NCBI GenBank assembly: GCA_014189435.1
Contig: CP050293.1
Location: 2,299,001 to 2,363,000, forward strand
Reading direction: 5' to 3'
Length of the DNA stretch: 64,000 nt
DNA from: Mesorhizobium loti
GTDB taxonomy: Bacteria; Pseudomonadota; Alphaproteobacteria; Rhizobiales; Rhizobiaceae
This document shows, piece by piece, positions 1,413-55,733 of this stretch. Under the pieces are notes generated by a model. That model did no database searches, was not told where the DNA came from, and worked only from the letters and a program-made list of their open reading frames with translations. The translations under genes and the position numbers were made by a program. Each line of letters opens with the position of its first letter. The first letter of the stretch is position 1.

Positions 1413-1576
1413 GCCGCCATTCCGCTTGTTCGAGGGCCGATTCGTTCATTTAGATTACTACAGCATCTTCTTGGGCTCATAATCTCAGTTTGTTCTCATT
1501 AAACCTATGGTCTGGAAGCGTTTTGTCGCCGCCCCAAAGGACTGCCAGACACGCGCTGGCGCATTCCTGCGTTTAA

Positions 1577-1592
1577 CCCGTCCTATTCACGA
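1577..1592 (+). repeat. IS1380 terminal inverted repeat, left
   Basis: CCCGTCCTATTCACGA pairs with the inverted copy at 3177-3192 with two mismatches. It is preceded by TTAA at 1573-1576. Confidence 0.82.
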
Positions 1593-1727
1593 GCGGCCTG
1601 GTTCCTTGCCGCTTGGCGTTCGGTCATGAAGGTGTGAGGCGTCTTTTTCACCGCAGCTGAGACTGGACTTTGGAACGCGCTGGAGGGTCAAGGTATCGGG
1701 TTCGGTGGGGCTTTGATGCCCCGGCGC

Positions 1728-3071
1728 TCATGGCCCTGCGGGCTGCAGCGTGATGGCGATCGTTCGGAACAGACTTGCTTCGGGACAGGCGGCGGCGAAG
1801 GCCAGACGGATGCGCGAGACGGTTTCGGTGACGCGGGCGCCGAGCTTGAGAAGCCTGAGCCGCAGTGTAGAGAACTCGGCGTTGCACAGATGATGGGTCG
1901 TGGGCACTGCCTCGCGCAGGGTGAGCATCAACCAGTATGCGGCGGTGTGCAGGACGAGACGGACCTGGTTGGCAATCGGTGAGCGGCAGCTGGTGCGGTC
2001 GGAGGCGAGCTGGCTCTTGTGCATCTTGATCAGGTTTTCGGCCTGGCCGCGGGCGCAGTAGATCACATCGTAGACATGCTCGGCGGAGCCTTTGTCGAGA
2101 TTGGTGACGACGAAGCGGATGTCGAGGCCGAGGGTGGTTGCCTCGATGCGGGCGCAGGCGCGGCGTTCCGTCCTCCAGGATTTCGCCTTGTATCGGGTCT
2201 CGGCATAGCCGCGCAGCACCGGCTTCTGCTCGAGCGCGCGGCGGGTGCGGATATCGTCGGCGGCTTCATCAACGAGACGCTGGAGAACCTTGTTGCCGGG
2301 CAATCCGAAGAGGTAGTCGACCGCATTGTCCTCGCACCATGCCATGACTTGCGCCCGGCCATAGTGGCCATCGCCGCGGATCAGAATGCGGGTGGTCGGC
2401 CAGCGGGCGCGGATGCGCCGGACAAGCCGGCGCAGATGGCCGCGGATCTCCTTGCCCGCCGGGGTCCTGCCAGGACGCAGGATCATGGCGACCGGGCGTC
2501 CTGTCGCGGCGTCGTAGATGTGGATCGGCAGGAAGCAACGCTCGTCGTAATGGGCGTTGAACAGCGAGAGCTGCTGATGGCCGTGAACGACATCCACCGT
2601 GTCGTCGATGTCGAGCGTGACGCTTTTGGGCGGCGCGGCATAGCTCGACAGCCACAGATCGACCAGCACCCAGCCGAGCCGGATGACGGTGCGCAGGTCG
2701 GGCAGGTTCTCGAGGCGCGAGCATGTCGGCTGCGAGCACAGATCAATCCCGCTGTCGGGCAGCCGCCCGCAGGCGAGCTTGAAGGCCGGGTCGGTGCGCA
2801 GCCGGTCGAGATCGTTGGCATCCTCGTAGCCGCATGCGATCGCAAAGATGCGGGCGCGCACAATGTCGGCCATGGCGTGCGTCACCCGCGCTGGATCGCG
2901 CGGATCGTGGATCGCGGCGGCCAGCCTGTCGGCCAGTTGCAGGCGTCGCTCGGCCGCTGCCAAAAGCATGACGCCACCATCCGAGGTGATGCGTCCGCCG
3001 TCAAACGCAGCTGTGATCTTCTTGCGTCCAACGGCTGGAAATGAGAGCGGCAGCAACGTATCATCGGTCAT
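1728..3071 (-). CDS. IS1380-family DDE transposase
   Basis: 447 residues starting MTDDTLLPLSFPAVG, a typical IS1380 transposase length. The N-terminal half carries the conserved block around FDGGRITSDGGVMLL. DDE catalytic residues can be placed at LDIDDTVD (residues 153-160), IRGDGHYGR (D234) and GQAENLIK (E345), in the order expected of the IS4-like DDE fold. The enzyme would cut and rejoin the element ends. No frameshift or internal stop is present, so the gene looks functional. It is the only gene of the element. Confidence 0.93.
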   Translation of the reverse strand: MTDDTLLPLSFPAVGRKKITAAFDGGRITSDGGVMLLAAAERRLQLADRLAAAIHDPRDPARVTHAMADIVRARIFAIACGYEDANDLDRLRTDPAFKLACGRLPDSGIDLCSQPTCSRLENLPDLRTVIRLGWVLVDLWLSSYAAPPKSVTLDIDDTVDVVHGHQQLSLFNAHYDERCFLPIHIYDAATGRPVAMILRPGRTPAGKEIRGHLRRLVRRIRARWPTTRILIRGDGHYGRAQVMAWCEDNAVDYLFGLPGNKVLQRLVDEAADDIRTRRALEQKPVLRGYAETRYKAKSWRTERRACARIEATTLGLDIRFVVTNLDKGSAEHVYDVIYCARGQAENLIKMHKSQLASDRTSCRSPIANQVRLVLHTAAYWLMLTLREAVPTTHHLCNAEFSTLRLRLLKLGARVTETVSRIRLAFAAACPEASLFRTIAITLQPAGP

Positions 3072-3176
3072 GGCGGGTGTGGCTCGCGAGAGGCGGTGGC
3101 AGGGTTGGCTTAGACAACCGAATCCTACGCTAAATCAATCGCTTAGGCTACATCCGCCAACCTCTCAGACGCAACG

Positions 3177-3192
3177 TCGTGCATAAGACGGG
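3177..3192 (-). repeat. IS1380 terminal inverted repeat, right
   Basis: TCGTGCATAAGACGGG is the inverted partner of 1577-1592 and is followed by TTAA at 3193-3196. It lies 105 bp upstream of the transposase start. Confidence 0.82.
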
Positions 3193-3305
3193 TTAAGTAC
3201 GGCGCGCGCTGAAAGTGGCCGGAAAGACGATTGTGTAGAACAGGTCGGGGCAAACGCCTCAGGTCTCCGCTTGCCTGCCGGACGTTCGGTATCTATAATT
3301 ATGAA

Positions 3306-4295
3306 ATGCCTGACTATTCGTCCCGACCGTCTTCGGCGCCACATATTCCGATGGATGCGCTCAGCGAAGTCCTACAAGACTTTCGCTTGAGTGGCGTCAG
3401 CTATGGCCGCTGCGAGCTTCGACATCCATGGAGCATCGCCTTCCCGGAACAACCGCTGCTTCGTTTTCACTTTGTCGGTCAGGGTCCATGCTGGATCCAT
3501 AGCGAAGCGCAAGGCTGGCAGGAGTTGCGCGATGGCGATCTGGCGCTGCTGCCGCAAGGCATCGCCCATCGGCTGGCCAGCGCGCCGGACGTTGCAGGCG
3601 GCTCGCTCGATGATTGCCAGGTGACCAAGTTGGGAAGCAACGTCTGCGAAGTGGTACGGGAAGGCACAGGCGCGACAAGCACCCTCTTCTGCGGCTCCAT
3701 GGCCTTGGGCGCCTGTGCGCTTAACCCATTGATCATGTTGATGCCGCCTATCATCAAGGGTTGCGACGTGGCCGGCAATGACCCGGTCGTTGGTCCTTTG
3801 CTGGCGGCTATGACCGTGGAGGCCGCGCAACCGCAGATGGGCAGCGCCACCATCTTGTCGCGTATGGCGGACTTGCTGACAGCCCGGCTCATTCGCTGCT
3901 GGGTCAATTGCACGGGAGCCTCGACCACCGGTTGGCTCGCAGCCATCCGCGACCCTCATATTGGCCGCGCTCTGGCAGCCATGCACCGAGACCCCGGCCA
4001 TAACTGGACGCTGGAAAGCCTCGCCAGCCTGGCAGGCCAATCGCGCTCGATTTTCGCCGAACGCTTCAGCGCTGTATTGGGGGAGGGTGCTGCACGCTAT
4101 CTCGCCCGTCTGCGCATGCAGCTTGCCCGCGAGTTGTTAGGGCAAAACGGCTTGTCGGTGGCCGAGGTCGCTACCCGTTTAGGCTATGATTCCGAGGCAT
4201 CCTTCGCTCGCGCGTTCAAGCGCATCACCAGTGTCTCGCCGGGCGTTGTGCGTCGCACAATTCCCGGACGAATAGACATGAATTTCGGATTTTGA
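3306..4295 (+). CDS. AraC-family transcriptional regulator with cupin N-terminus
   Basis: 329 residues from ATG 3306 (MPDYSSRPSS); a TTG at 3231 would add 25 residues that look non-homologous, and another ATG lies at 3351. The N-terminal half resembles the AraC-binding cupin type 6 domain (LRFHFVGQGPCWIH, DGDLALLPQGIAHRL). The C-terminal third carries two helix-turn-helix units (LESLASLAGQSRSIFAERF, then LSVAEVATRLGYDSEASFARAF). It lies 60 bp upstream of an MFS exporter on the same strand, the common arrangement in which such a regulator controls its adjacent efflux gene. The inducer is unknown. Confidence 0.87.
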   Translation: MPDYSSRPSSAPHIPMDALSEVLQDFRLSGVSYGRCELRHPWSIAFPEQPLLRFHFVGQGPCWIHSEAQGWQELRDGDLALLPQGIAHRLASAPDVAGGSLDDCQVTKLGSNVCEVVREGTGATSTLFCGSMALGACALNPLIMLMPPIIKGCDVAGNDPVVGPLLAAMTVEAAQPQMGSATILSRMADLLTARLIRCWVNCTGASTTGWLAAIRDPHIGRALAAMHRDPGHNWTLESLASLAGQSRSIFAERFSAVLGEGAARYLARLRMQLARELLGQNGLSVAEVATRLGYDSEASFARAFKRITSVSPGVVRRTIPGRIDMNFGF

Positions 4296-4331
4296 GGTAC
4301 ATATCATCCGAAGTGGCTCGTCTATGAAGAC

Positions 4332-4346
4332 CTCCAAACTTTGGAG
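4332..4346. promoter_or_regulatory. Palindrome overlapping the Shine-Dalgarno site of the MFS gene
   Basis: CTCCAAACTTTGGAG is a perfect 7-1-7 inverted repeat. Its right arm ends in GGAG, the ribosome-binding site 8 bases before GTG 4355. As DNA it could be an operator. As RNA, CTCCA pairs with TGGAG around a 5-base loop and would hide the ribosome-binding site. Both readings are inference. Confidence 0.45.
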
Positions 4347-4354
4347 ATCTTTCC

Positions 4355-5563
4355 GTGACAGACACAACATTACAGCTTGAAGACGCGGCGATAGACGTCG
4401 ATGCCGGTGCGCCAGCCGCGTGGAGCGCAGCCACCTGGTTCGCGGTCGTTTCATTGGCGGCCACCAGCTTTGCCCTGGTGTCGGCCGAATTCCTGCCCGC
4501 AGGTCTGCTGACGCCAATGGCACGCGATCTCGGCATCAGCGAGGGGACGGCCGGGCAGGTCGTCACCGCCACCGCTTCCGTCGGCGCCGTGACGGCCATG
4601 TTGAGCAATGTTCTCATCGGCCGATTGAACCGCAAGACGGTGCTGGTTGGCCTTAGCGCCTTGGCAGTCGGTTCCAATGTTCTCGCAGCGCTGGCGCCCA
4701 ATTTCTGGCTGTTGTTGCTGGGCCGGGCCGGGCTGGGAATCGCTCTCAGCGCTTTCTGGGCACTTTCGGTCGCCGTCGTGGCAAGGCTGGTTGGCGCGAA
4801 TGCGACAGGGCGGGGCATGGCTATCGTCACCCTCGGCGTCTCGCTCGCAACCATTGCCGCACCGTCGATGGGCGCGTTGATCAGCGACTGGCTGGGTTGG
4901 CGCAGCGCCATGGCCATGACAGCGGGGTTGGCCTTGCTTGCCATGCTGCTGCAATTGCTTAGTCTGCCGACCTTGCCTGCAACAGCAAGCAATAGTCTTG
5001 CAGACGTCCTTCGGCTGACACGGCGGCGTGGCATTCAACTCGGTATGCTTGCTATCCTTTTGCTGATGACGGGGCATTTTGCCGGCTCGGTTTATGTGCG
5101 TCCTTTCCTCGAACACGTGACTCTCCTTGCAACCGGGCCAATTGCCCTGGCGTTGCTGGGATTTGGCATCGCCGCTGTGATCGGCAACATTGCCGGTGGC
5201 CGCATGGCCGACGCCAATATCCACGTTGCTCTCGTGGCTACCGCCGCATTGATGGCGTTTGCGGCGCTGGCATTGGTTCTCTGGGGCGTGCACATTGGCG
5301 TTGCCTTTGGCTTCGCTACGCTGTGGGGCTTCGCCTTCGGCATGGCGCCGGTGGTGCTGCCGACAAATTTGTCTCGCGCAGCTCCTGACGCGCTGGAAGC
5401 GGCGGGCAGCCTGATGGTCGCCTCTTTCCAGATCGCCATCACCATCGGCGCGGTTGTCGGCGGCTATGTTGTGGACACCTATGGCCCTACAGCGCCTTTG
5501 ACTCTGACTGCTATCCTTGCCGCATCGACAGCCGTCTTGGCGCTGCTGCAGCCACGCAGCTGA
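4355..5563 (+). CDS. MFS transporter, NepI/AraJ-like efflux permease
   Basis: 402 residues with about twelve hydrophobic segments, starting at GTG 4355 behind GGAG at 4343-4346. The segment SAEFLPAGLLTPMARDLGIS followed by the loop motif GRLNRKTVL is typical of the drug/proton antiporter (DHA1) branch of MFS that includes NepI, AraJ and YdhP, which export purine ribonucleosides, sugars or drugs. It follows an AraC-type regulator, so regulated efflux of a small molecule is likely. The substrate cannot be read from sequence. Confidence 0.88.
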   Translation: MTDTTLQLEDAAIDVDAGAPAAWSAATWFAVVSLAATSFALVSAEFLPAGLLTPMARDLGISEGTAGQVVTATASVGAVTAMLSNVLIGRLNRKTVLVGLSALAVGSNVLAALAPNFWLLLLGRAGLGIALSAFWALSVAVVARLVGANATGRGMAIVTLGVSLATIAAPSMGALISDWLGWRSAMAMTAGLALLAMLLQLLSLPTLPATASNSLADVLRLTRRRGIQLGMLAILLLMTGHFAGSVYVRPFLEHVTLLATGPIALALLGFGIAAVIGNIAGGRMADANIHVALVATAALMAFAALALVLWGVHIGVAFGFATLWGFAFGMAPVVLPTNLSRAAPDALEAAGSLMVASFQIAITIGAVVGGYVVDTYGPTAPLTLTAILAASTAVLALLQPRS

Positions 5564-5743
5564 ACTTTGCTGCCGCCGACACAATAGCCTGAATCCTGCC
5601 GCTGGCGATGTTGCAGGCGCGATACACAAGTTGACACCGGGAACACGTTGCATCTTGCCACAATCGAAGGCTAAGGACGCTCGGCTTCGGCCATTGGAGG
5701 GTGAGCGACGATCAAGTCGCGCCCTTTTGAGGAGATGACTGAC

Positions 5744-11857: not shown

Positions 11858-14430
11858 ATGGCCAAGGAAGCGCGCGGCGATTTCTATCCGGTACCGATCG
11901 TCGACCAGAATACGCGACCGGGCGCGGTCACCCGGCTTATCATTTTCATCGTCGTTCTGACGGGGGCGGCGATCGTCTTCGGCCTGTTCCGCGAGCGCCT
12001 CGGCGATCCTTTCCTGCTCGGCATGCTCGGCGTGCTGGCGATGATCGGCGTCGGCTTCCTGTTTGCCACGGCGATCGGCTTCGTGCAGGTCACGCCGCGT
12101 TCGACAGGCGATGAACTGTCTAAATCCTTTGTCGATTCGATGTCGCAGGGCCTTCTCGTCACCGACACCAAGGGCCGTGTCGTCTACGCCAATCGCGCCT
12201 ATGCCGACATGACCGGAGCGTCGTCGGCGGCCGACCTGAAGACGGTCGAGGGGTTGCTCTCGGATGTTCCCGAAGCTTCGGTGACGATCTATCGCCTGGC
12301 CTCGGGCCTGCGCGACGCCCAACCGGGCGACGGCGAGTTTCGGCTCGCGCAATCCATTCGGCCCGGCGCCGAGCCCGGCGCCCGCTGGTACAGGGCGCGG
12401 GCGCGCACCTTCAGCGTTCCGGGCCAGCGGCTGCCGATGCTGGCCTGGCAATTGGCCGACATCTCGCAGGAGCGGGCCGAGCAGGAGCGTTTCTTCCTCG
12501 ATTTGCAAAAGGCGATCGACCATCTCGACCACGCGCCTGCCGGCTTCTTTTCGGCCGACCAGGAGGGCCGCGTCACCTACATCAACGCCACGCTCGCCGA
12601 ATGGCTGGGCATCGACCTCACCAGCTTCACGCCCGGCGCCGTCTCTCTTTCGGAGATCGTCGCCGGCGACGGCATGGCGCTGGTCCGCTCGGTCAAGGCC
12701 GATCCCGGCACGACACGCAACGCGGTGATCGATCTCGATTTGACGACGATGACGGGCGAGGCGCTGCCGGTGCGCTTCATGCATCGCGTTTCGGCCAGCC
12801 GCGAAGGCCTCAACGGGCCGACGCGCACGATCGTGCTCAACCGTACGCAAGGCGAGGACTCCTCGGCCGATTTGCGGGCCTCGGAAGTGCGCTTCACCCG
12901 CTTCTTCAACTCGACACCGATGGCGATAGCGGGCGTCGACCACAACGGGCGCATCCTGCGCACCAACGCGCCGTTCCTGTCGCTGTTTTCATCCGTCGTC
13001 GATCGCGACGCCGTCGATCGCCGTGTGCGGCTCGACACGGTGATCCATGAACGCGACCGGCCGGCCTTCGCGGCTGCCTTCGAAAAGGCGCAGCAGCGGC
13101 AGGCCGATATCGAGCCGATCGACACGCTTCTGCCCGGCAACGACGACCGGCACATCCGTTTCTACGTCAACGCGGTCGCCGACGGCACCGGCGGCGAGGG
13201 TGCCGAGGAGTCGGCCATCGTCTACGCCGTCGAGACGACGGAGCAGAAGGCGCTCGAAGGGCAGATGGCGCAAAGCCAGAAGATGCAGGCGGTCGGCCAG
13301 CTTGCCGGCGGCATCGCGCATGATTTCAACAATGTTCTGACCGCCATCATCATGGCGTCGGACCTTTGTTGACCAACCACCGTCCATCCGACCCGTCCTT
13401 CCCCGACATCATGAACATCAAGCAGAACGCCAACCGGGCGGCTTCGCTGGTGCGGCAGCTGCTCGCCTTCTCGCGCAAGCAGACATTGCGGCCGGAAGTG
13501 CTCAACCTGACCGACGTGCTCGCCGATCTCAGGATGCTGCTGGCCCGTCTTGTGGGTAACGACATCAAGCTGAAGGTCGACCATGGCCGCGACCTGTGGC
13601 CGGTCAAGGTCGATATCGGGCAGTTCGAACAGGTGGTGGTCAACCTTGCGGTCAACGCGCGCGACGCAATGCCGGCGGGTGGCGATCTCACCGTGCGCAC
13701 CCGCAATGTGACCGCCGACGAGTGCAAGGCCTTTTCCTACCGCGAACTCACCCCGGCGGACTATGTCGTGGTCGAAGTCGAGGACACCGGCAGCGGTATC
13801 GCGCCTGACGTGCTGAAGAAGATTTTCGAGCCCTTCTTCACGACGAAGGAAGTCGGCAAGGGCACCGGCCTTGGCCTGTCTATGGTCTACGGCATCATCA
13901 AGCAGACCGGCGGCTTCATCTTCTGCGATTCCGAAGTCGGCAAAGGCTCGACTTTCCGCATTTTCCTGCCGCGTCATATTGCGGAAGCGAAAAAAGCAGG
14001 AGAGCCCGGCGATGTGCCGGCGGCCCCGGCAAAGATCGCCGATGCGGCCAAGGATCTGTCCGGCTCGGCCACGGTGCTGCTCGTCGAAGACGAGGATGCC
14101 GTGCGCATGGGCGGCATGCGGGCGCTGACCTCGCGCGGCTACACCGTGCACGAGGCGTCGTCGGGCGTCGAGGCGCTGGAAGTGTTCGAGGCGCTGGGCG
14201 GCAAGGTCGACATCGTCGTTTCCGATGTGGTGATGCCGGAAATGGACGGACCGACGCTGCTTGGTGAATTGCGCAAGCGCCAGCCGGATATCAAGTTCGT
14301 TTTCGTGTCCGGTTATGCCGAGGACGCGTTCGCCAGAAACCTGCCGGCCGACGCGCATTTCGGCTTCCTGCCGAAGCCGTTCTCGCTCAAGCAACTGGCG
14401 ACGATCGTCAAGGACGTGCTGGAGTCCTAG
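11858..14430 (+). CDS. cckA: CckA-type cell-cycle hybrid histidine kinase, split by a frameshift
   Basis: Two overlapping frames (11858-13372 and 13366-14430) together encode one kinase of about 857 residues. Part one has two transmembrane segments (residues 25-75), PAS-type sensor regions (from about 85, again about 220 and 340) and the HisKA motif GGIAHDFNN with H488. Part two continues with [20 protein letters not shown], the N-box [11 protein letters not shown]-boxes DTGSGIAPD and [13 protein letters not shown], then a receiver domain with phosphoacceptor Asp in [12 protein letters not shown]. The break is at GGACCTTTGTTGACC (13360-13374): one more T gives MASDLLLTNHRP, the family sequence. 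CckA feeds phosphate to CtrA through ChpT and is essential in many relatives. Confidence 0.9.
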
Positions 14431-16912: not shown

Positions 16913-18484
16913 ATGGCAGCTTCATTTGATCTGAACAACGACGGCGTGGTCGTCATCATCGGCTCGGGCGCCGGCGGCGGCACGCTCGGAAACGAACTCG
17001 CCCAGAAGGGTGTCGACGTCGTCATCCTGGAAGCCGGCGCGCGCCACGAATATGAGGATTTCATCAATGACGAGTGGGGCTCGTTCGCCCAGCTCGCCTG
17101 GACGGACAAGCGCACCACCTCCGGCGACTGGCGTGTGGCCAAGGATTTTCCGAACCTGCCGGCCTGGATCGTCAAGTCGGTCGGCGGTTCCACCACGCAT
17201 TGGGCGGGAGCCTCGCTGCGCTTCCAGGAGCACGAGTTCAAGACGCTGTCGACCTATGGCAAACTGGAAGGCGCCAACCTGCTCGACTGGCCGATCACGC
17301 TGGCCGAGATGGAGCCTTATTACGCCAAGGCCGAAGCCAAGCTGGGCGTCACCGGCACCAATGACTGGCCGCGGCTGCCGGGCAACAACAATTTCAAGGT
17401 GTTGAAGGCCGGCGCCGACAAGCTCGGCTACAAGGAATGCCACACCGGCAACATGGCGATCAATTCGGTCGAGCGCGACGATCGTAATTCCTGCCAGCAG
17501 ACCGGCTTCTGCTTCCAGGGCTGCAAATGGGGCGCCAAATGGTCGACGCTCTACACCGAGATCCCCAAGGGCGAGGCGACAGGCCATCTCGAAGTCAGGC
17601 CGAACGCCATGGCGATCAAGATCAACCATGACGCCAGCGGAAAGGTGACGGGCGTCGTCTATGCCGACAAGGACGGCAAGCTGCAGGAGCAGAAGGCCCG
17701 CATCGTCGCCGTTGCCGGCAACTCGATCGAGAGCCCGCGGCTGCTGCTCAATTCAGCGTCGGGCAAATTCCCCAATGGTCTAGCCAACTCGTCGGGGCAG
17801 GTGGGAAAGAACTACATGCGCCACACCACCGGCTCGGTCTACGCCATCTTCGAAAAGCCGGTGCACATGTATCGCGGCACCACCATGGCCGGCATCATCC
17901 GCGACGAGGCGCGCCATGATCCGTCACGCGGGTTCGTCGGCGGCTACGAGTTCGAGACGCTGTCACTCGGCCTGCCGTTCATGGCGGCCTTCCTCGATCC
18001 CGGCGCCTGGGGCCGCTCGTTCACCACCGCACTCGACCACTACGACCACATGGCCGGCCTGTGGATCGTCGGCGAGGACATGCCGCGCGCGGAGAACCGC
18101 ATCGCGCTGCATGTCGACGAGAAGGACGCGCACGGCATGCCGATCGCCGACGTGCATTTCGACGACCATCCGAACGACACGGCGATGCGCAACCACGCCT
18201 ACAAGCAGGCCACGGCACTGTACGATGCGGTTGGCGCCACGCGCACCTTCCCGACGCCGCCCTATCCGTCGACCCACAATCTCGGCACCAACCGGATGAG
18301 CGAGAAGGCGGAAGACGGCGTCGTCAACAAGCACGGCCAGGCGCACGACATCAAGAACCTGTTCGTGTCGGATGGCAGCCAGTTCACGACCGGTGCGGCG
18401 GAAAATCCGACCCTGACGATCGTGTCGCTGGCGATCCGCCAGGCCGACTACATCGCCGCGCAGATGTCGGCCAAGACGATCTGA
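16913..18484 (+). CDS. GMC-family FAD dehydrogenase, catalytic subunit with 3Fe-4S-type cysteines
   Basis: 523 residues from ATG 16913 behind GGGAGG. The FAD-binding motif VVIIGSGAGGGTLGNELAQK is at residues 13-32. A GMC C-terminus is clear: STHNLGTNRMS holds the catalytic His, and FVSDGSQFTTGAAENPTLTI closes the flavin site. C194-X5-C200-X3-C204 matches the [3Fe-4S] cysteine spacing known in bacterial FAD-glucose dehydrogenases. It would oxidise a sugar, sugar acid or alcohol in the periplasm and pass electrons out. Tandem hairpins follow the gene. Confidence 0.83.
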   Translation: MAASFDLNNDGVVVIIGSGAGGGTLGNELAQKGVDVVILEAGARHEYEDFINDEWGSFAQLAWTDKRTTSGDWRVAKDFPNLPAWIVKSVGGSTTHWAGASLRFQEHEFKTLSTYGKLEGANLLDWPITLAEMEPYYAKAEAKLGVTGTNDWPRLPGNNNFKVLKAGADKLGYKECHTGNMAINSVERDDRNSCQQTGFCFQGCKWGAKWSTLYTEIPKGEATGHLEVRPNAMAIKINHDASGKVTGVVYADKDGKLQEQKARIVAVAGNSIESPRLLLNSASGKFPNGLANSSGQVGKNYMRHTTGSVYAIFEKPVHMYRGTTMAGIIRDEARHDPSRGFVGGYEFETLSLGLPFMAAFLDPGAWGRSFTTALDHYDHMAGLWIVGEDMPRAENRIALHVDEKDAHGMPIADVHFDDHPNDTAMRNHAYKQATALYDAVGATRTFPTPPYPSTHNLGTNRMSEKAEDGVVNKHGQAHDIKNLFVSDGSQFTTGAAENPTLTIVSLAIRQADYIAAQMSAKTI

Positions 18485-18493
18485 GCCGACAAA

Positions 18494-18520
18494 ACACCAC
18501 CCCGGTGACCGGGGTGGTGT
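18494..18520 (+). terminator. First hairpin after the GMC gene
   Basis: ACACCACCCC (18494-18503), loop GGTGACC, GGGGTGGTGT (18511-18520). A 10-bp perfect stem ten bases after the GMC stop; it lacks a T tract and may act with the next hairpin. Confidence 0.6.
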
Positions 18521-18548
18521 GGAATTCCAGCGTCCTCCCGGACCGCCA

Positions 18549-18580
18549 GGCGGAACGCGTAACGCGCGTTCCGCCTTTTT
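18549..18580 (+). terminator. Rho-independent terminator after the GMC gene
   Basis: GGCGGAACGCG (18549-18559), loop TAACG, CGCGTTCCGCC (18565-18575), TTTTT. The T tract follows on the plus strand, so it ends the dehydrogenase transcript and shields the convergent phoX. Confidence 0.85.
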
Positions 18581-18592
18581 GTGGGGGCAAGG

Positions 18593-20506
18593 CTAGGCGC
18601 CGACCGGCTGCCCGTCCTTGCGGCGGATGGCGACCACGGACGGGCGAGGCAACTGGCCATCCCTGAAGTCGGGCCACAGCGTTTGTACCTTGTCGAGCAT
18701 CTCGGCGTCTTCGGCCGGGTGCTGGACCGACAGGAACAAGGTCGTGCCGTCCGGCGTGAAACAGGGGCCGGTGGCCTCCGCGCCATGCGGGCAGGTGAAC
18801 AGCAGTTTCGGCAGGCCACGCGCCGGGCCTTCGGTGTCGACGCCATAGACGCCGTCCGGCAGGTCGAAATCATTGGCGCCGTCGGTCGCCACCCAGAGCC
18901 GGCCGGCCGGATCGAAGGTGATGTTGTCGGGGCAGACGAACCAGCCATTGTCCGATGTGTCCGGGTGGAAGGTGGCGCCGACTTTGGCGTCCTTCGGGTT
19001 GCCGCACAGCACGAACAGGTCCCAGGCATATTTGTCGGCCGTGTGGTCGGCGTCTGCGCCGCGGCCGCCGGGCGGGATCAGCTCGACAATGTGGCCCCAG
19101 AGGTTTTCCGGACGCGTGTTGGCCGGATTGACCTTCGACTGGTCGCGCTTCTTGTTCTTGGTCATAACCGCGTAGACGCGGCCGGTCACCGGATTGGTCT
19201 CGATGTCCTCGGGGCGGTCCATCGGCGTGGCGCCCAGTGCGTCCGCCGCCAGCCGTGTCTTCAGCAGCACTTCCGCCTGGTCGGCAAAGCCGTTTTCTGC
19301 GGTGAGCTTGCCCTGGCCGTGAACCAGCGGCAGCCAGGTCATGGAGCCATCGGCATCGTAACGGGCGACCGACAGCACGCCGTCATCCAGCAGGCCGTTG
19401 CCGGAGGCTGGTTTGGCTGGATCGTAGGCCTTGTTCGAGACGAAGCGGTACATGTATTCGAAATAGTCGTCGTCACCCATATAGACCACGACCCGGCCAT
19501 CCTTGTTGAGGACGACCGTGGATGCTTCGTGCGACATGCGACCAAGCGCCGTGCGCTTCACCGGCTTCGAAGCCGGATCGTAGGGGTCGATCTCGACCAC
19601 CCAGTCGAAGCGGTTTGGTTCATTCGGCTCCTTGTCGATGTTGAAGCGGTCATGAAAGCGACCGCGGCCATAGATGTCGGAACCGTCGAAGCCATAGCGG
19701 TCAAGAATGTCAGCGGCCGGCGCCTTCTTCGGGTCGCCGCCGAACAGGTCGGAAACGCCTTCCTCGCAGGTCAGCACCGTGCCCCAAGGGGTGAAGCCGC
19801 CGCTGCAATTGTAGCTGGTGCCGAGCACCTTCGTGCCGGTCGCGTCGGCAGATGTCTTCATCAGTGCGTGGCCGGCAACGGGGCCGGAAACGGTCATTTC
19901 GGTGTTTGCCGTGATGCGGCGGTTGAGCGGGCTGTCCTCGACGATTGCCCATTTGCCGTCCTTCAGCAGCACTTCGACGATCGAATGACCCATGGCGGCC
20001 ATGCCGAGGTCGACCTGTTCCTTGCTCATCGTCTTGCCGGCGTCGTCCTCGGTCATGCCGGGAAACATGACATTGGGCGAAATGTACTCGTTGTTGACGC
20101 AAAGCAGGCCGTGGTCGGAATTCACCGTGCCTTTCGGCAGTGGCAGGAAGGCGATGTAGTCGCAATTGTAGCCGAAACGCTTTTCCTGCTCGTCGGCGAC
20201 GACCTTGCTGCCGTCGAAATCCGGAAGGCCGGCGACGATCGGGTCGCCCCAGCGTGCGACGATCGTGGTCTCATAGCCCTCGGCGGCGGCGTGGGTCTTA
20301 TCGTAGACGCGCTTCAGTTCGGGAAAGCCGAGCGTGGAAAGCGCTGCCGCGGCATGGGTTTCGCCGGCAAACAATGAACCGACGAAGCTGCCGCCGGCAA
20401 TCAGCGCACCGGATGCAAGGCTGCCTTTCAGGAGATCCCGGCGCGAGACACGCTCGGCGATGACGTCGCGAATGACAGGGGAAGATGAAGACGGGGAATT
20501 GGCCAT
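18593..20506 (-). CDS. PhoX-family Tat-exported alkaline phosphatase
   Basis: 637 residues with a Tat signal (VSRRDLLKG, R22-R23; hydrophobic region to about residue 53). The body is PhoX/DUF839: HGLLCVNNEYISPNVMF, NCSGGFTPWGTVLTCEEGVS, and PEDIETNPVTGRVYAVMTKN, with acidic clusters typical of the Ca/Fe site. PhoX enzymes release phosphate from organic phosphomonoesters in the periplasm, usually under phosphate starvation. No obvious Pho box was identified. Other DUF839 members have unknown activity, so the phosphatase role is family-based. Confidence 0.85.
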   Translation of the reverse strand: MANSPSSSSPVIRDVIAERVSRRDLLKGSLASGALIAGGSFVGSLFAGETHAAAALSTLGFPELKRVYDKTHAAAEGYETTIVARWGDPIVAGLPDFDGSKVVADEQEKRFGYNCDYIAFLPLPKGTVNSDHGLLCVNNEYISPNVMFPGMTEDDAGKTMSKEQVDLGMAAMGHSIVEVLLKDGKWAIVEDSPLNRRITANTEMTVSGPVAGHALMKTSADATGTKVLGTSYNCSGGFTPWGTVLTCEEGVSDLFGGDPKKAPAADILDRYGFDGSDIYGRGRFHDRFNIDKEPNEPNRFDWVVEIDPYDPASKPVKRTALGRMSHEASTVVLNKDGRVVVYMGDDDYFEYMYRFVSNKAYDPAKPASGNGLLDDGVLSVARYDADGSMTWLPLVHGQGKLTAENGFADQAEVLLKTRLAADALGATPMDRPEDIETNPVTGRVYAVMTKNKKRDQSKVNPANTRPENLWGHIVELIPPGGRGADADHTADKYAWDLFVLCGNPKDAKVGATFHPDTSDNGWFVCPDNITFDPAGRLWVATDGANDFDLPDGVYGVDTEGPARGLPKLLFTCPHGAEATGPCFTPDGTTLFLSVQHPAEDAEMLDKVQTLWPDFRDGQLPRPSVVAIRRKDGQPVGA

Positions 20507-20626
20507 GGTGTCTGCCTCTCAAGGTGGATGGGACGGCGCACCGCTGCCTATCCAGCTTCAGCAACATCCAGATGACATGAGAGAAGGGCAGGCCGCTGAG
20601 GCAGCGGCTGTTGCCCAGGGAATCGC

Positions 20627-21046
20627 CTACTGGTTTCCTCTGGTGCAGGTCGAGGCGGTGAAGGCGCCGTCGGGTTGCTTCATGATGATGTCGAAGGAGG
20701 GCGTGCTCTGGCCGTCCAGCGTTGCCTGGGTCAGCGACAGCGCGTTGCCGCCGGCGGTGTAGCCGCCCAGTGGTCCCAGCCATGAGATCACGCCGTTCGC
20801 ATCCATTTGATAATTGTACCCCTGCTGCGCGGTCCCGAAGGTGCCGAGGCTGGTGTAGACCGGGCCGCTGTAGAGGCTCCCCTTGATGGTGATGTCGCCG
20901 AGGCTGAGGAACATGCCGAGCAGGTAGACCTCGCAGTGATAGGTGCCATCGGGCATCTTGCCGTCGCTGAAGTCGGCTCGTGCGGCCCCGGTTGCTGTCG
21001 CCAGAAGCAGTATGCCGATAAAGATGCGTGAAGTGCCTGAAGCCAT
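20627..21046 (-). CDS. Exported hypothetical protein
   Basis: 139 residues. A signal peptide (ASGTSRIFIGILLLATATGA) is cleaved near AARADFSDG. The mature protein is glycine/tyrosine-rich beta-type sequence with two cysteines (YHCEVYLL near residue 37 and STCTRGNQ at the end) that may form a disulfide. No family is recognised. It is 120 bp upstream of phoX on the same strand and divergent from the urt operon. Confidence 0.62.
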   Translation of the reverse strand: MASGTSRIFIGILLLATATGAARADFSDGKMPDGTYHCEVYLLGMFLSLGDITIKGSLYSGPVYTSLGTFGTAQQGYNYQMDANGVISWLGPLGGYTAGGNALSLTQATLDGQSTPSFDIIMKQPDGAFTASTCTRGNQ

Positions 21047-37272: not shown

Positions 37273-37902
37273 TCAGCCGGCCATCAGCGCCTTGATGCCA
37301 TCCGCCACGAACTGCACGGCAAGTGCCGCCAGGATGACGCCGAGCAGCCGGGTCAGGATCGAGCGGCCGGTCTGGCCGAGGATGCGGTCGATCCGTTCCG
37401 ACAGCACGAACACCAGATAGGTGATGGCGAGGCAGACGAAGATGATGCCGACAAGTGCGGCCTGCGCGGCAAAGCCCTGGAACGAACCGGAGAGCAGCAC
37501 CGTCGCCGAAATGGCGCCGGGTCCGGCAATCAGCGGGATCGCCAGCGGGAAGGCGGCGATGTTGTGGATCATGTCCTTGGTGATGGCGACGTCGCCGATC
37601 TTCTCCTTGCGGTCCTGCCGACGCTCGAACACCATTTCGAAGGCGATGAAGAACAAGAGAAAACCGCCGGCGACGCGGAAGGCCGGCAGCGTGATGCCGA
37701 ACACCGACAGGATCGAGGCGCCGGCAACCGCAAACAGTGCCATCACCAGGAAACCGATGATCGAGGCGCGGACGGAAACCTGCTGGCGCTCCTCGCGGTT
37801 CATGCCTCGCGTCACGGCGAGGAACAGCGGCGCCAGGCCGGGCGGATCGATGGTCACGAGAATGGTGACGAAGGCGTTGAACAGGCTGTCGAAACTCGGC
37901 AT
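37273..37902 (-). CDS. MarC-family integral membrane protein
   Basis: 209 residues with six hydrophobic segments. The N-terminus FVTILVTIDPPGLAPLFLAV and PLAIPLIAGPGAISATVLL carry the two conserved proline-containing motifs of MarC/UPF0056. Despite the name, MarC is not shown to be an antibiotic efflux pump; function is unknown. Monocistronic, converging with the OsmC gene. Confidence 0.87.
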   Translation of the reverse strand: MPSFDSLFNAFVTILVTIDPPGLAPLFLAVTRGMNREERQQVSVRASIIGFLVMALFAVAGASILSVFGITLPAFRVAGGFLLFFIAFEMVFERRQDRKEKIGDVAITKDMIHNIAAFPLAIPLIAGPGAISATVLLSGSFQGFAAQAALVGIIFVCLAITYLVFVLSERIDRILGQTGRSILTRLLGVILAALAVQFVADGIKALMAG

Positions 37903-37992
37903 CTCTGACCCTCCCGCCGGGCCGAGCCCGTACCAGCATATTGGTAGAGCAAAGCCCGGTCGGTGGGAACTGTCAGGACAACGAAACCGGGT

Positions 37993-38370
37993 TTATCCGG
38001 CAGCGCCGCAATAGGCCTCGATGCGATAGCCGTCCGGGTCGACGACAAAGGCGGCATAGTAATTGTCGCCATAGTCGGCGCGCAGGCCCGGCGCGCCATT
38101 GTCACTGGCGCCTTCGCGCAAGGCGCCGGCATGGAAAGCGTCGACGCTGGCCCGCGTTGGCGCGGCGAAGCAGAAATGCAGGCCTGATTTATCGTCTGAC
38201 GGCACAGGCCGAGCCGCTTCGTTCACCCATAACACGACGTTTTGAGCGCCATAACCAAGCGAGCCCGGTGACTGGCTCAGACAGCTGTAGCCGAGCGGCT
38301 TCAGGGCAGCGTCGTAGAAACGCTTGGAGGCAGCGGCATCGCGGACACCGATCGAGATATGATCGAACAT
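37993..38370 (-). CDS. VOC-family protein
   Basis: 125 residues from ATG 38370 (MFDHISIGVRDAAASKRFYD) with GGAG 9 bases upstream; an in-frame start at 38451 is less likely. Glyoxalase/bleomycin-resistance fold: HISIGV, GLHFCFAAPTRASVDAFHAG and VVDPDGYRIEAYCG. Probably an enzyme or binding protein of unknown substrate. Follows the 38403 gene on the same strand. Confidence 0.8.
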   Translation of the reverse strand: MFDHISIGVRDAAASKRFYDAALKPLGYSCLSQSPGSLGYGAQNVVLWVNEAARPVPSDDKSGLHFCFAAPTRASVDAFHAGALREGASDNGAPGLRADYGDNYYAAFVVDPDGYRIEAYCGAAG

Positions 38371-51062: not shown

Positions 51063-51299
51063 ATGAAGGCGTTTTTCGTGCAGATCAAATGCGAGCTCGG
51101 CAAATCCTATGAGGTTGCCAGCGCGCTTGCCGATGCCGAGATCGCTTCGGAAATCTACTCCACTGCCGGCAACTACGATCTGCTCGCCAAATTCTATGTC
51201 GACGACGAGGAAGATGTCGGCCATTTCGTCAACGAGAAGGTGCAGATTCTCCCCGGCATCAAGGACACGTTCACCGTGGTGACGTTCCGCGCTTTCTAG
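51063..51299 (+). CDS. Stand-alone Lrp/AsnC ligand-binding (RAM) domain protein
   Basis: 78 residues. MKAFFVQIKCELGKSYEVAS to VQILPGIKDTFTVVTFRAF is a complete alpha-beta sandwich RAM domain without a DNA-binding part. Such proteins assemble as rings and may sense amino acids, or modulate full-length Lrp proteins. Its TAG stop (51297-51299) lies in a palindromic repeat. The 274 bp before it hold no recognised gene. Confidence 0.83.
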   Translation: MKAFFVQIKCELGKSYEVASALADAEIASEIYSTAGNYDLLAKFYVDDEEDVGHFVNEKVQILPGIKDTFTVVTFRAF

Positions 51300-51395
51300 A
51301 GCCCGTTCCATCCCGATAGAATCGGGATGGGGCTCTATCTGTTTGTTTGAGCATGATCTTCTCCGAAAACCGGATTCCACTTTTCGGGATCATGC
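51296..51395. repeat. Palindromic intergenic repeat, family A, copy 2
   Basis: Starts CTAGAGCCCGTTCCATCCCG with GATAGAATCGGGATGGGGCT closing the first palindrome, then GCATGATCTTCTCCGAAAAC ... TTTTCGGGATCATGC. Closely matches 45654-45756. Its first TAG is the stop of the 51063 gene. Confidence 0.82.
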
Positions 51396-51572
51396 CCCAG
51401 CCGCCAAAACGCACTTGCCCGGACACGAGGCAAAGCCTGATTACTGTCATATTTCGACTGCCTCAATTTTAGGCAGGCGCAACATACTGATCGCCCGTAT
51501 CTCCCAAATCACCGATTGCGCTTGATTTTCTCCGGCGACGCCAGTGAAATGGCGTCACAGGGGAGTATGCGA

Positions 51573-52986
51573 TTGGCAGCGTTCGATGAAATGCTTCCGG
51601 AAGTCTCCGGATTGAGAAGACCGTATTCGGCTTATGATCGCTGGCTGAAGGAGCAGGATCCGGCCAGGCTGACCGAGAAAATGCAGGACGCCGAACGCGT
51701 CTTCCGCAAGACCGGCATCACCTTCGCCGTCTATGGCGAGCAGGAAGCCTCCGAGCGGTTGATCCCGTTCGACATCGTTCCCCGCATCATTTCAGGCAAT
51801 GAATGGCGCCGCCTCACGCAAGGCATCGAGCAGCGTGTGCAGGCGCTGAACGCCTTCCTCGACGACATCTACCATCGCCAGGAGATCCTGCGGGCAGGGC
51901 GCGTTCCCAGGGAATTGATCGCCAGGAACGAGGCATTCCTGCCGGAAATGATAGGGGTCAGGCCGCCGGCCGGCGTCTATACCCACATTATCGGCGTCGA
52001 CATCGTTCGCATCTCAGAGGACGAATTCTACGTGCTGGAAGACAATGCACGCACGCCGTCGGGCGTCTCCTACATGCTGGAGAACCGCGAGACGATGATG
52101 CAGCTGTTCCCCGAGCTGTTCCAGAAGATCAAGGTGCGGCCGGTGGAGAACTACCCGCAGCTTCTGCGCCAGTCGCTGGCCGCCGTGCGGCCGCAAAGCA
52201 CCAAGGGCGCGCCGACCATCGCGGTGCTGACGCCCGGCAGTTACAACTCCGCCTATTTCGAACACGCCTTCCTTGCCGACCAGATGGGCGTGCAACTGGT
52301 CGAGGGCCAGGATCTGCGCGTCGTCGATGGCCATGTCGCCATGCGCACGACCGAAGGCTACAAGCAGATCGATGTGCTCTACCGGCGCGTGGACGATTCT
52401 GTATCTGGACCCGCTGACGTTCCGGCCCGACTCGGCGCTTGGCGTGCCCGGCATCATGGATGTCTACCGCGCCGGCAACATCACCATCGCCAACGCGCCG
52501 GGCACCGGCATCGCCGACGACAAGGCGATCTATTCCTACATGCCCGAGATCATCGAATTCTACACCGGCCGCAAGGCGATCCTCGGCAACATTCCGACCT
52601 GGCGCTGCTCGGAGCCGGACAGCCTGAAATATGTGCTCGAACACATCGACGAGCTGGTGATCAAGGAAGTGCACGGTTCCGGCGGTTACGGCATGCTGGT
52701 CGGGCCGGCGGCAACCAAGAAGGAATGCGAGACGTTTGCCAAGAAACTGGCGGCAAAACCCTCGAATTACATCGCCCAGCCAACGCTGGCTCTGTCGACA
52801 TGCCCGATCCTGACGGAAAAGGGGCTGGCGCCACGCCATGTCGATCTCAGGCCTTATGTGCTGGTCTCCGACCGCATCCAGATCGTGCCCGGGGGCCTCA
52901 CACGTGTCGCGCTGAAGGAAGGTTCGCTGGTTGTGAACTCGTCTCAGGGCGGCGGGACGAAAGATACTTGGGTGTTGGATGATTGA
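51573..52986 (+). CDS. Circularly permuted ATP-grasp protein, frameshifted
   Basis: About 470 residues in two frames. TTG 51573 ([20 protein letters not shown]) has GGGGAG 7 bases upstream; ATGs at 51549 and 51567 are alternatives. Part one runs to DVLYRRVDD. The frame then breaks within about 52396-52403 and resumes as [20 protein letters not shown], ending [16 protein letters not shown]. The length (1414 bp) fits one extra base. The family (DUF404/DUF407 type) is a predicted peptide ligase using ATP, with binding residues in [14 protein letters not shown] and [17 protein letters not shown]. First gene of the alpha-E, transglutaminase, Anbu cluster. Confidence 0.88.
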
Positions 52987-53026
52987 GACGAGCAGGGGGG
53001 ACGCAGCAATCATGAGACGCATTCTT

Positions 53027-53054
53027 CCCTATTCGCTACTCCCTATTCGCTACT
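53027..53054 (+). repeat. 14-bp tandem duplication
   Basis: CCCTATTCGCTACT occurs twice head to tail, in the gap between the ATP-grasp and alpha-E genes. Confidence 0.85.
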
Positions 53055-53078
53055 CGCTCAAAATCGGGGCACGTTGAC

Positions 53079-54020
53079 ATGCTTCTCGGCCGCACCGCCA
53101 ACGGGCTCTACTGGATGAACCGCTACATCGAGCGGGCCGAGAATATGGCGCGGCTGGTCGATGCCGGCCTGCGCATGGCGCTGACTCGTACCCAGAGCGC
53201 CTCGGAAGAGTGGAATTCGGTGCTGCTCAGCGCTGGTTCCGACGTCACTTTCAGCCAGAAATATTCTGACTATACCGCCGCCAATGTCGCTGACTTCCTG
53301 TTGCGCGACACGTCGAACCCGTCGAGCACGATGGCGTCGATCGAGACGGCCCGCAACAACGCCCGCATGGTGCGCACGGCGCTGACGCGCGAGACCTGGG
53401 AAAGCATCAACGAGGCCTGGATGGCGCTGAAGCGGATGCTGGCCAGGCCGATCGACGAGCGCGACCTGCCCAGCGTGCTCGACGCCATCAAGCGCGAGAC
53501 GGCGCTGATCCGCGGCTCATTCTACGGCACCATGCTGCGCAACGAGATTTTCGATTTCTCGCAGCTCGGTACCTATGTCGAGCGCGCCGACAACACGGCG
53601 CGCATCCTCGACGTGAAATACTACGTGCTCCTGCCCTCGATCTCCTGGGTCGGCTCGACACTCGACAATTACCAGTGGGAATCGATCCTGCGCTCTGTGT
53701 CGGCACATCGCTCCTATCGCTGGGTCTATGATGCCGACTACAAGCCGACCAACATCGCCGACTATCTGATCCTCAATGTCCGCATGCCGCGCTCGCTGAC
53801 CTTCTGCTATCGCTTCCTGTCTGAGCATCTGAAGTTCCTCGGCGACGACTACGGCGAGCGCCATGCCTGCCACGCAACGGCCGAGAAGACGCAGACAATG
53901 CTGAGAGCCGGGTCGATCAAGGATATTTTCGATACCGGCCTGCATGAATTCCTGGCCAATTTCATCCGCGACAACACCAAGCTTGGCGAAGAAATCGCGC
54001 AAGATTACCGGTTCAATTGA
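53079..54020 (+). CDS. Alpha-E domain protein
   Basis: 313 residues, nearly all alpha-helical, matching the bacterial alpha-E (DUF403) family: LLGRTANGLYWMNRYIERAE at the start, then FDFSQLGTYVERADNTARIL and PRSLTFCYRFLSEHL. The conserved Arg/Glu helices (YIERAEN, YVERADN) are repeated. Always found beside the ATP-grasp/transglutaminase genes; role unknown, presumably a partner in peptide formation. Confidence 0.9.
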   Translation: MLLGRTANGLYWMNRYIERAENMARLVDAGLRMALTRTQSASEEWNSVLLSAGSDVTFSQKYSDYTAANVADFLLRDTSNPSSTMASIETARNNARMVRTALTRETWESINEAWMALKRMLARPIDERDLPSVLDAIKRETALIRGSFYGTMLRNEIFDFSQLGTYVERADNTARILDVKYYVLLPSISWVGSTLDNYQWESILRSVSAHRSYRWVYDADYKPTNIADYLILNVRMPRSLTFCYRFLSEHLKFLGDDYGERHACHATAEKTQTMLRAGSIKDIFDTGLHEFLANFIRDNTKLGEEIAQDYRFN

Positions 54021-54027
54021 GAATGGC

Positions 54028-54054
54028 TCCGAAAAGTGGGACAAGATCATGCTC
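54028..54054. repeat. Remnant of family A repeat
   Basis: TCCGAAAAGTGGGACAAGAT plus CATGCTC corresponds to the inverted second palindrome of family A with the middle deleted. Lies just after the alpha-E stop. Confidence 0.6.
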
Positions 54055-54072
54055 ACAAGCGAGACATAGCGC

Positions 54073-54867
54073 ATGCGACTGAAGATCACCCACCGGACCG
54101 AATACCGCTACGATGCGCCGGTGCACTATCTGTTGCAGCGGCTGCGGCTGCTTCCGGTCAGCGGATCGACGCAGACCGTTCTGTCCTGGGCGTTGACCAT
54201 CGAAGGCGCGCGCGAAGAGGTTCGCTTTGTCGACCATTTCGGCAACGACACAAGGCTGCTGAGCGTCGAGGGCGAGCGCGACTTCATCACGGTGGAAGCA
54301 TCGGGCGAAGTGGTGACGCGCGACACCGCGGGTGTCTCGGGACCACACCAGGGCTTTACGCCGCTCTGGCTGTACAGCCATGAAACACCATTGACGACGA
54401 TTGGCAGCGGTGTTCGCGAACTTGCGGCATCGATCGGCAAGGGCACCGACATTGAAAGACTTCACCGGCTGATGGCTGTCATCGGCGAGCGCGTTGCCTA
54501 CACGCCCGGCACCACCAATGCGGCGACGCCTGCGGAGGAAGCCTTGGCGCTCAAGACCGGTGTCTGCCAGGATCACACGCATATCTTTGCCGCCGCGGCG
54601 CGCGCCATGGGCTTTCCGGCCCGCTATGTCAGCGGCTACCTGATGCTGGATGCGACAGTCGAGCAGGCCGCAAGTCACGCCTGGGCCGAAGCGCATGTAT
54701 CTGGTCTCGGCTGGGTTGCCTTCGATGCCGCCAATGGCATTTCGCCCGACGAGCGCTATGTAAAGGTGGCAACCGGCCGCGACTACCGCGACGCCACGCC
54801 GGTGTCGGGAATTCGGCTGGGACTGGCGGAAGAACGGCTTGCGGTCACCGTCACGGTGGAGCAGTAA
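54073..54867 (+). CDS. Transglutaminase-like cysteine peptidase family protein
   Basis: 264 residues. N-terminal beta domain (LKITHRTEYRYDAPVHYLLQ) typical of bacterial transglutaminase-like proteins, then the core with catalytic C165 (TGVCQDHTHIF), H202 (ASHAWAEAHV) and D218 (AFDAANG). In this cluster it may trim or cross-link peptides made by the ATP-grasp enzyme; this is inference. Confidence 0.9.
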   Translation: MRLKITHRTEYRYDAPVHYLLQRLRLLPVSGSTQTVLSWALTIEGAREEVRFVDHFGNDTRLLSVEGERDFITVEASGEVVTRDTAGVSGPHQGFTPLWLYSHETPLTTIGSGVRELAASIGKGTDIERLHRLMAVIGERVAYTPGTTNAATPAEEALALKTGVCQDHTHIFAAAARAMGFPARYVSGYLMLDATVEQAASHAWAEAHVSGLGWVAFDAANGISPDERYVKVATGRDYRDATPVSGIRLGLAEERLAVTVTVEQ

Positions 54868-54886
54868 TCCTTCGCAAGATTGCTGC

Positions 54887-54991
54887 CAGAGCGATTCATC
54901 GTTTCAAGGAAACGCCGAACCGCTCTATCCCTTTGTTTTAACGCAATTCCGGACGGAAAACCGCTTCACACTTCTCCTGGAATTGCTCTAG
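54887..54991. repeat. Palindromic intergenic repeat, family B, copy 2
   Basis: CAGAGCGATTCATCGTTTCA ... GAATTGCTCTAG, sharing GACGGAAAACCGCTT and flanks with 15223-15327. It lies 10 bp before the anbu start, so the ribosome-binding site (AGAAGAGA) is directly at its edge. Confidence 0.8.
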
Positions 54992-55001
54992 AAGAGATTT
55001 C

Positions 55002-55733
55002 ATGACTTATTGCGTTGGCCTGAAGATCGATCGCGGGCTCGTGTTCATGTCGGACACCCGCACCAATGCCGGCATGGATTCGATTTCCACCTTCCGCAAG
55101 ATGCATATCTGGGAGCAGCCGGGCGAGCGCGTCATCGTTTTGATGTCGGCTGGCAATCTGGCGACGACGCAGGCCGTGGTCAGCCTGCTCGACGAACGCA
55201 CCAAGGCAATTGCCGACCGTCACGCCACGCTTCTGGAGACGCCGTCGATGTATCAGACGGTGCGGCTGGTCGGCGATACGGTCAAGGAGGTCATCGCCAG
55301 CTCGTCGCCTGCCGGCGAGAAGGCGGATTCCTACTTCAACGCTTCCTTCATCCTCGGCGGCCAGATCAAGGGCAGCGAACCGCGCCTGTTCATGATCTAT
55401 CCCGAGGGTAATTTCATCGAATCGACCGATGACACGCCGTTTTTCCAGATCGGCGAGACCAAATACGGCAAACCGATCATCATCCGCGCCTACGAAAAGA
55501 CGATGAGCCTCGCCGAGACGGTGAAGCTGCTTTTGGTGTCGTTCGATTCGACGTTGAAGTCGAACCTGTCCGTCGGCCTGCCGCTCGATCTGCTCTTCCT
55601 GGAGAAGGACGCCTTCAAGGTCGGATTGAAGAAGCGGATCAGCCAGGACGACCAGTATTATCGCACGATCTCGGACGGCTGGTCGAACGCGCTGAAGACG
55701 GCTTTTGCCAGCCTGCCGGATTTCCCTGGCTGA
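55002..55733 (+). CDS. Anbu-type proteasome-like peptidase
   Basis: 243 residues. MTYCVGLKIDRGLVFMSDTR exposes Thr2 as the N-terminal nucleophile after Met removal, and Lys/Asp positions follow the 20S proteasome beta fold (MSDTRTNAG, MSAGNLATTQAVV). This is the bacterial Anbu family, distinct from HslV. It completes the ATP-grasp, alpha-E, transglutaminase, Anbu set. No ATPase partner is nearby. Physiological substrates are unknown. Confidence 0.92.
   Translation: MTYCVGLKIDRGLVFMSDTRTNAGMDSISTFRKMHIWEQPGERVIVLMSAGNLATTQAVVSLLDERTKAIADRHATLLETPSMYQTVRLVGDTVKEVIASSSPAGEKADSYFNASFILGGQIKGSEPRLFMIYPEGNFIESTDDTPFFQIGETKYGKPIIIRAYEKTMSLAETVKLLLVSFDSTLKSNLSVGLPLDLLFLEKDAFKVGLKKRISQDDQYYRTISDGWSNALKTAFASLPDFPG

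Follow-up and report, generated by a model that had tools for sequence, protein, structure and literature searches.

The four genes at 51567..55733 of a 64,000 nucleotide window of Mesorhizobium loti DNA (the whole stretch analysed here, from an 8.33 Mb genome on three contigs) are the Mesorhizobium copy of the published Anbu operon, and the system is therefore not new. All on the + strand, they encode in order a circularly permuted (CP) ATP-grasp protein, an Alpha-E protein, a transglutaminase-like protein and Anbu, a proteasome-like Ntn-hydrolase. Judged from gene distribution, the ATP-grasp/Alpha-E pair looks like the core of the system and Anbu like an accessory. We give a probability of about 55% to a reading in which an amide-forming ATP-grasp/Alpha-E core is served by the transglutaminase and Anbu for processing or turnover, the product is linked to nitrogen, and a break in the ATP-grasp frame is probably an assembly error. 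What is new here is that frame break in the assembly, the finding that the repeats and a RAM gene close to the operon are incidental, and a quantified asymmetry between Anbu and the other genes.

Four genes on one strand in this order had been predicted from the window, and both open reading frames (ORFs) and Pfam domains bear this out. The CP ATP-grasp gene (51567..52986, +), whose frame is broken, matches CP_ATPgrasp_1/2 (PF04174/PF14403) with both of its halves. It is followed by the gene for the 313-residue, all-helical Alpha-E protein (DUF403; 53079..54020, +; PF04168, 2.5e-92), the transglutaminase-like gene (54073..54867, +; Bact_transglu_N PF08379 and Transglut_core PF01841) and the Anbu gene (55002..55733, +; Proteasome PF00227), the last of the module. 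The transglutaminase triad C165/H202/D218 is intact, as originally claimed, and each residue is conserved in at least 119 aligned homologues drawn from 140 loci (L106-L165 and L187-L266): C165 in 119/122, H202 in 120/121 and D218 in 119/120. Anbu, likewise, has the threonine nucleophile ascribed to it; T1, D17 and K32 (numbered after Met) are intact and are kept in 109/110, 110/110 and 110/110 homologues, respectively. Its closest solved structures are Anbu entries (nine PDB matches with five distinct sequences, the closest including 5loy, 5nyj and 5nyf), and the nearest named Anbu proteins come from Mesorhizobium. Alpha-E has no clear relative among solved structures. Its structure model is confident and all-helical (mean predicted local distance difference test score, pLDDT, 90.5; predicted template modelling score, pTM, 0.89), and in the alignment an ER motif appears twice, at about residues 15-28 and again at 166-178, a hint that the protein may have arisen by internal duplication. 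Five of its residues, R15, R19, R25, R99 and E168, are invariant.

The window resembles the Anbu operons of Yersinia bercovieri, Pseudomonas aeruginosa and Hyphomicrobium described in PMC6376114 and PMC5666114 in its four families, their order and strand, and the Anbu residues; it differs in its broken ATP-grasp frame, in repeats between genes and in an upstream RAM gene found in the genus and close relatives. The original prediction called the system under-described, which stands for its product and substrate only: the operon with its four members had already been published, as had the Anbu structures and the finding that one ATP-grasp protein releases phosphate (PMC6376114, PMC5666114). The Rlo operon of Pseudomonas aeruginosa, as presented in PMC12239564, likewise joins an ATP-grasp to a transglutaminase-like protein and a peptidase, but its ATP-grasp is RimK-like, its transglutaminase an inactive membrane protein and its peptidase aspartic, with neither Anbu nor Alpha-E. 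Unlike the 20S proteasome and HslV, the window's Anbu operon has no AAA+ unfoldase partner among the genes scanned against Pfam, namely its own four members, the RAM gene and the two annotated genes that come next. In the amidoligase systems of ATP-grasp and transglutaminase described by Iyer et al. in 2009, CP ATP-grasp is reportedly linked with Alpha-E and transglutaminase; the window shares this linkage and adds no new domain.

Core and accessory genes across genomes

The four genes were originally taken to form a joint system, a claim to be checked by comparing gene order across genomes, and they are indeed co-conserved. All four genes are found within 7 kb of Anbu in 44 of 60 distant Anbu loci, our selection from 94 matches outside the genus, and 43 of these 44 are collinear on one strand, L162 being the one that differs. 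The implied equality of the four parts did not survive the comparison, since the ATP-grasp/Alpha-E pair also occurs without Anbu and, in three Aureimonas loci, without the transglutaminase. When loci from named organisms were collected by way of Alpha-E (the best 80 of at least 593, leaning to close relatives), ATP-grasp was found upstream in all 80, transglutaminase in 77 and Anbu in 50. The three lacking transglutaminase are the Aureimonas loci L232, L235 and L239, where Anbu directly follows Alpha-E. The 30 without Anbu belong to Rhizobium, Agrobacterium, Sinorhizobium, Shinella, Ciceribacter, Neorhizobium, Martelella, Burkholderia, Caballeronia and other Rhizobiales; the call applies to the locus only, and two of them (L218 and L240) are cut off too close behind the transglutaminase for the absence of Anbu to be judged.

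The asymmetry recurs at the level of whole genomes. Of 249 genomes of the phylum, 97 carry both Anbu and Alpha-E, 48 Alpha-E alone, only 2 Anbu alone and 102 neither, one marginal Anbu match (G188) being scored as Anbu-less; the co-occurrence is strong (Fisher p = 1.6e-29), though inflated by kinship among the genomes. Within the genus, 136 of 146 genomes have both ATP-grasp and Anbu, 5 have ATP-grasp only, none has Anbu only and 5 have neither, the searches having used unequal E limits (1e-150 for ATP-grasp, 1e-3 for Anbu). The five Anbu-less congeners form one clade (support 1.0) and keep the flanking gene order, with no Anbu between the transglutaminase and a decarboxylase gene. In this clade the ratios of nonsynonymous to synonymous substitution (dN/dS) of the three core genes are 0.021, 0.027 and 0.089, at dS 0.59-0.80, compared with 0.046, 0.059 and 0.135 in ten Anbu-bearing relatives of our choosing (L063 was excluded from both tree and dN/dS because of a frame break of its own), so selection in the Anbu-less clade is no weaker. 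These ratios indicate strong purifying selection on the unit of three genes, which is thus kept even where Anbu is absent. A consistent replacement peptidase was considered and rejected, as the ORFs after the transglutaminase differ across the 14 Anbu-less loci examined; four of them scanned against Pfam gave no domain, a dehydratase, a zinc-type dehydrogenase and a LysR protein.

Proposed function and nitrogen control

ATP-grasp enzymes form amide bonds via acyl phosphates. We infer that the ATP-grasp protein, together with Alpha-E, would use ATP to activate a carboxylate and join it to an amine in a peptide or isopeptide bond, and that the transglutaminase-like enzyme would then cleave or transfer an amide of this product. 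Anbu would trim the product or break it down; it would be an optional enzyme of turnover, seldom kept where ATP-grasp and Alpha-E are missing. The core can do without Anbu but Anbu hardly without the core, which suggests that Anbu acts on the product of the core. Phosphate release from ATP has been reported for the ATP-grasp protein of Yersinia bercovieri (PMC6376114).

Several signals point to nitrogen. Sites resembling those of sigma-54, with at most one mismatch, lie upstream of 11 of 47 loci in the phylum sample, compared with 0.30 in letter shuffles, and five perfect sites occur there, compared with 0.00. The named loci have 4 in 77 (0.52 in letter shuffles), and the total is 15 of 166 loci against 2.25 in triplet shuffles, with 1 on the other strand. 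The sites upstream of ATP-grasp are those of L127, L128, L132-L136, L138, L140, L144, L152, L209-L211 and L255. Published accounts describe a DUF404/407-DUF403-transglutaminase cluster of Burkholderia cenocepacia as NtrC-dependent (PMC5491218), up-regulation in Pseudomonas putida under nitrogen limitation (as cited in PMC6376114 and PMC5666114) and co-variation of these domains with urea metabolism in marine metagenomes (PMC3597751). Because several other lineages show either sigma-54-type sites or published nitrogen control, the product is probably linked to nitrogen economy.

A number of observations weigh against this picture of an amide-forming core served by Anbu. In published pull-downs the proteins of the operon did not interact specifically with one another (PMC6376114), and neither PMC6376114 nor PMC5666114 establishes a product or substrate of the operon. 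No sigma-54-like site was seen in the window or in 40 congeneric loci, and NtrC-like dyads occur at chance level (2 of 166 loci, 2.2 when shuffled). ATP-grasp and Alpha-E are not near Anbu in 12 of the 60 distant loci and stand on the opposite strand in four more. Two genomes, G236 and G385, carry Anbu without Alpha-E and without CP ATP-grasp. Finally, a natural fusion of ATP-grasp and Alpha-E, which might have shown where Alpha-E sits on ATP-grasp, gave a model too poor for its domains to be placed (pLDDT 67.9, pTM 0.50). As for the surroundings of the two solitary Anbu genes (L273 in G236, L272 in G385), that of G385 lies beside sensor kinase genes.

The same 12 loci in which the genes occur apart are what speaks for the view that the four are adjacent by chance or shared ancestry only; with 43 of the 60 loci outside the genus collinear, and a strong genome-level association even where the genes are unlinked, we regard that view as very improbable. 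A more specific proposal, put forward in the literature (PMC6376114), is that ATP-grasp and transglutaminase tag proteins which Anbu, as a small proteasome, degrades. It agrees with the retention of T1/D17/K32 and with Anbu's match to the proteasome family. Against it, no AAA+ partner is present among the four genes, and the tests reported in PMC6376114 found none of three proteasome substrates cleaved by Anbu proteins. The core is, moreover, under purifying selection without Anbu, and Alpha-E often occurs without it, so that the tag would often lack a degrader; we consider the proposal unlikely. Slightly less likely still is nitrogen scavenging, in which Anbu would degrade proteins non-specifically during starvation while the transglutaminase frees ammonia. 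The nitrogen-limited up-regulation in Pseudomonas putida, the NtrC control in Burkholderia and the sigma-54-like sites of some lineages would all fit, but scavenging leaves the constancy of the ATP-consuming ATP-grasp/Alpha-E pair unexplained, and both the inactivity of Anbu in the published tests and the missing sigma-54-like site at the Mesorhizobium loci count against it as well.

Returning to the amide-forming core, we tentatively carry it one step further, to a proposal that we would not yet expect to prevail. Anbu may be an optional recycling hydrolase, rather than a protein-degrading one, for an ATP-grasp/Alpha-E product made under nitrogen limitation in several lineages, and where Anbu has been lost (in one Mesorhizobium clade, and probably in Rhizobium/Agrobacterium/Sinorhizobium and Burkholderia types) the product may still be made but no longer recycled. 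If Anbu does depend on what ATP-grasp and Alpha-E make, its substrate should be sought in a small amide-linked product and no longer among proteins. The Anbu-less Mesorhizobium clade supplies natural deletion strains to set beside relatives that carry Anbu.

The break in the ATP-grasp frame

The original prediction treated the ATP-grasp gene as intact and starting at 51573. In the assembly its frame is broken, and the ATG at 51567 is the more likely start. The N-terminal half (51567-52397, profile positions 1-205) and the C-terminal half (52402-52986, positions 207-374) lie in different frames; the shift falls at about 52,398-52,401 and is not within a single-base run. The C-terminal half thus lost carries residues invariant in all 126-128 aligned homologues, and the gene as assembled is predicted to be unable to yield a working enzyme. 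In all 40 congeneric loci fetched, the two halves are in one frame, one codon apart. A programmed frameshift was ruled out, since none of these relatives needs one. ATP-grasp is present in 141 of the 146 congeneric genomes and is full length without a stop in 139; the two incomplete cases are the window's own genome (match to residues 1-283 only) and G064 (partial, 2-369).

We compared the window with the syntenic contig of one relative, G035. More than 90% of the length of 41 of 52 matched ORFs was covered by a single window frame, and the remaining 11 include end-cut or divergent matches, the ATP-grasp gene and a PAS/hybrid histidine kinase gene (11858-14427; PAS, HisKA, HATPase and receiver domains in the relative). 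The frame of the latter is split by an isolated one-base difference near 13,365, in a T run. Another one-base difference, near 37,909 in a MarC-family gene (37276-38132), is upstream of the Pfam domain and may affect the start only. Two segments of the window, 1444-5582 (about 4.1 kb) and 18483-20636 (about 2.2 kb), have no match at the syntenic place in G035.

Because the hybrid kinase shows a similar one-base break, a leftover assembly error is the likelier explanation of the ATP-grasp break. The competing explanation, a real break of the gene in this strain with the module in decay, seems to us possible but the less probable of the two. It would fit the removal of a half with invariant residues, the position of the break outside any single-base run, and the breaks that the congeners L063 (in Alpha-E) and L072 (near the end of Anbu) have of their own. 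The role of the module might then have passed to a second locus of the same genome (L073 1996-8725; C1, about 430-437 kb), which encodes a transglutaminase-DUF2126 protein, an ATP-grasp/Alpha-E fusion and a transglutaminase. That locus shares the ATP-grasp, Alpha-E and transglutaminase domains, its proteins being about 24-32% identical to those of the window, but differs in the fusion and the DUF2126 domain, and Anbu was not found there. Against a real loss, the other three genes are intact and no other sign of decay is seen in the module, and the kinase difference in a T run suggests that assembly errors are left in this sequence.

Palindromic repeats and neighbouring genes

Palindromic repeats had been described as framing the module. 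Repeats A (51296..51400, no strand) and B (54885..54998, no strand) are dispersed palindromic intergenic repeats, with at least 38 matches in the genome for A, itself included (40 of 52 candidates scored), and at least 41 for B, a lower bound with 40 of 92 candidates scored. The short palindrome between Alpha-E and transglutaminase (54021..54072, no strand) appears by eye to be a reduced copy of the inner part of repeat A; the piece 54018-54078 matched only itself in the genome at E<=0.001, and its dispersal is thus not shown. In the window, which matches itself, and its congeneric relatives taken together, the gap between transglutaminase and Anbu matches the repeats in 15 of 41 loci, with a mean length of 136 nt versus 39 nt where unmatched; it is about 30 nt without repeat B and 132-157 nt with it. 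The corresponding figures are 25 of 41 (79 nt versus 12 nt) for the gap between Alpha-E and transglutaminase and 6 of 40 (284 nt versus 171 nt) for that between the RAM gene and ATP-grasp, while the ATP-grasp/Alpha-E gap varies from 21 to 491 nt among relatives with no match to the repeats. Since gaps that match repeats are longer and presence varies among relatives, the palindromes are, on this comparison, insertions; they exist where they had been reported, but as borders of the module they were rejected.

In being palindromic, intergenic and many-copy, repeats A and B are like the dispersed (RIME-like) palindromic repeats of rhizobia. Neither has an Rfam match, and scans of the window as a whole gave no tRNA and no Rfam family.

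The stand-alone RAM gene that the original prediction placed upstream (AsnC-type ligand-binding domain, PF01037; 78 residues) is present at 51063..51299 (+) but is no part of the wider association. It is near the module in 39 of 40 congeneric loci, 13 of the 80 named Alpha-E loci and none of the 60 distant Anbu loci. With these last two counts it was rejected as a part of the module, and we judge it from its distribution to be a local neighbour in the genus and close relatives. On the other side, the module is followed downstream by a pyridoxal-dependent decarboxylase gene.

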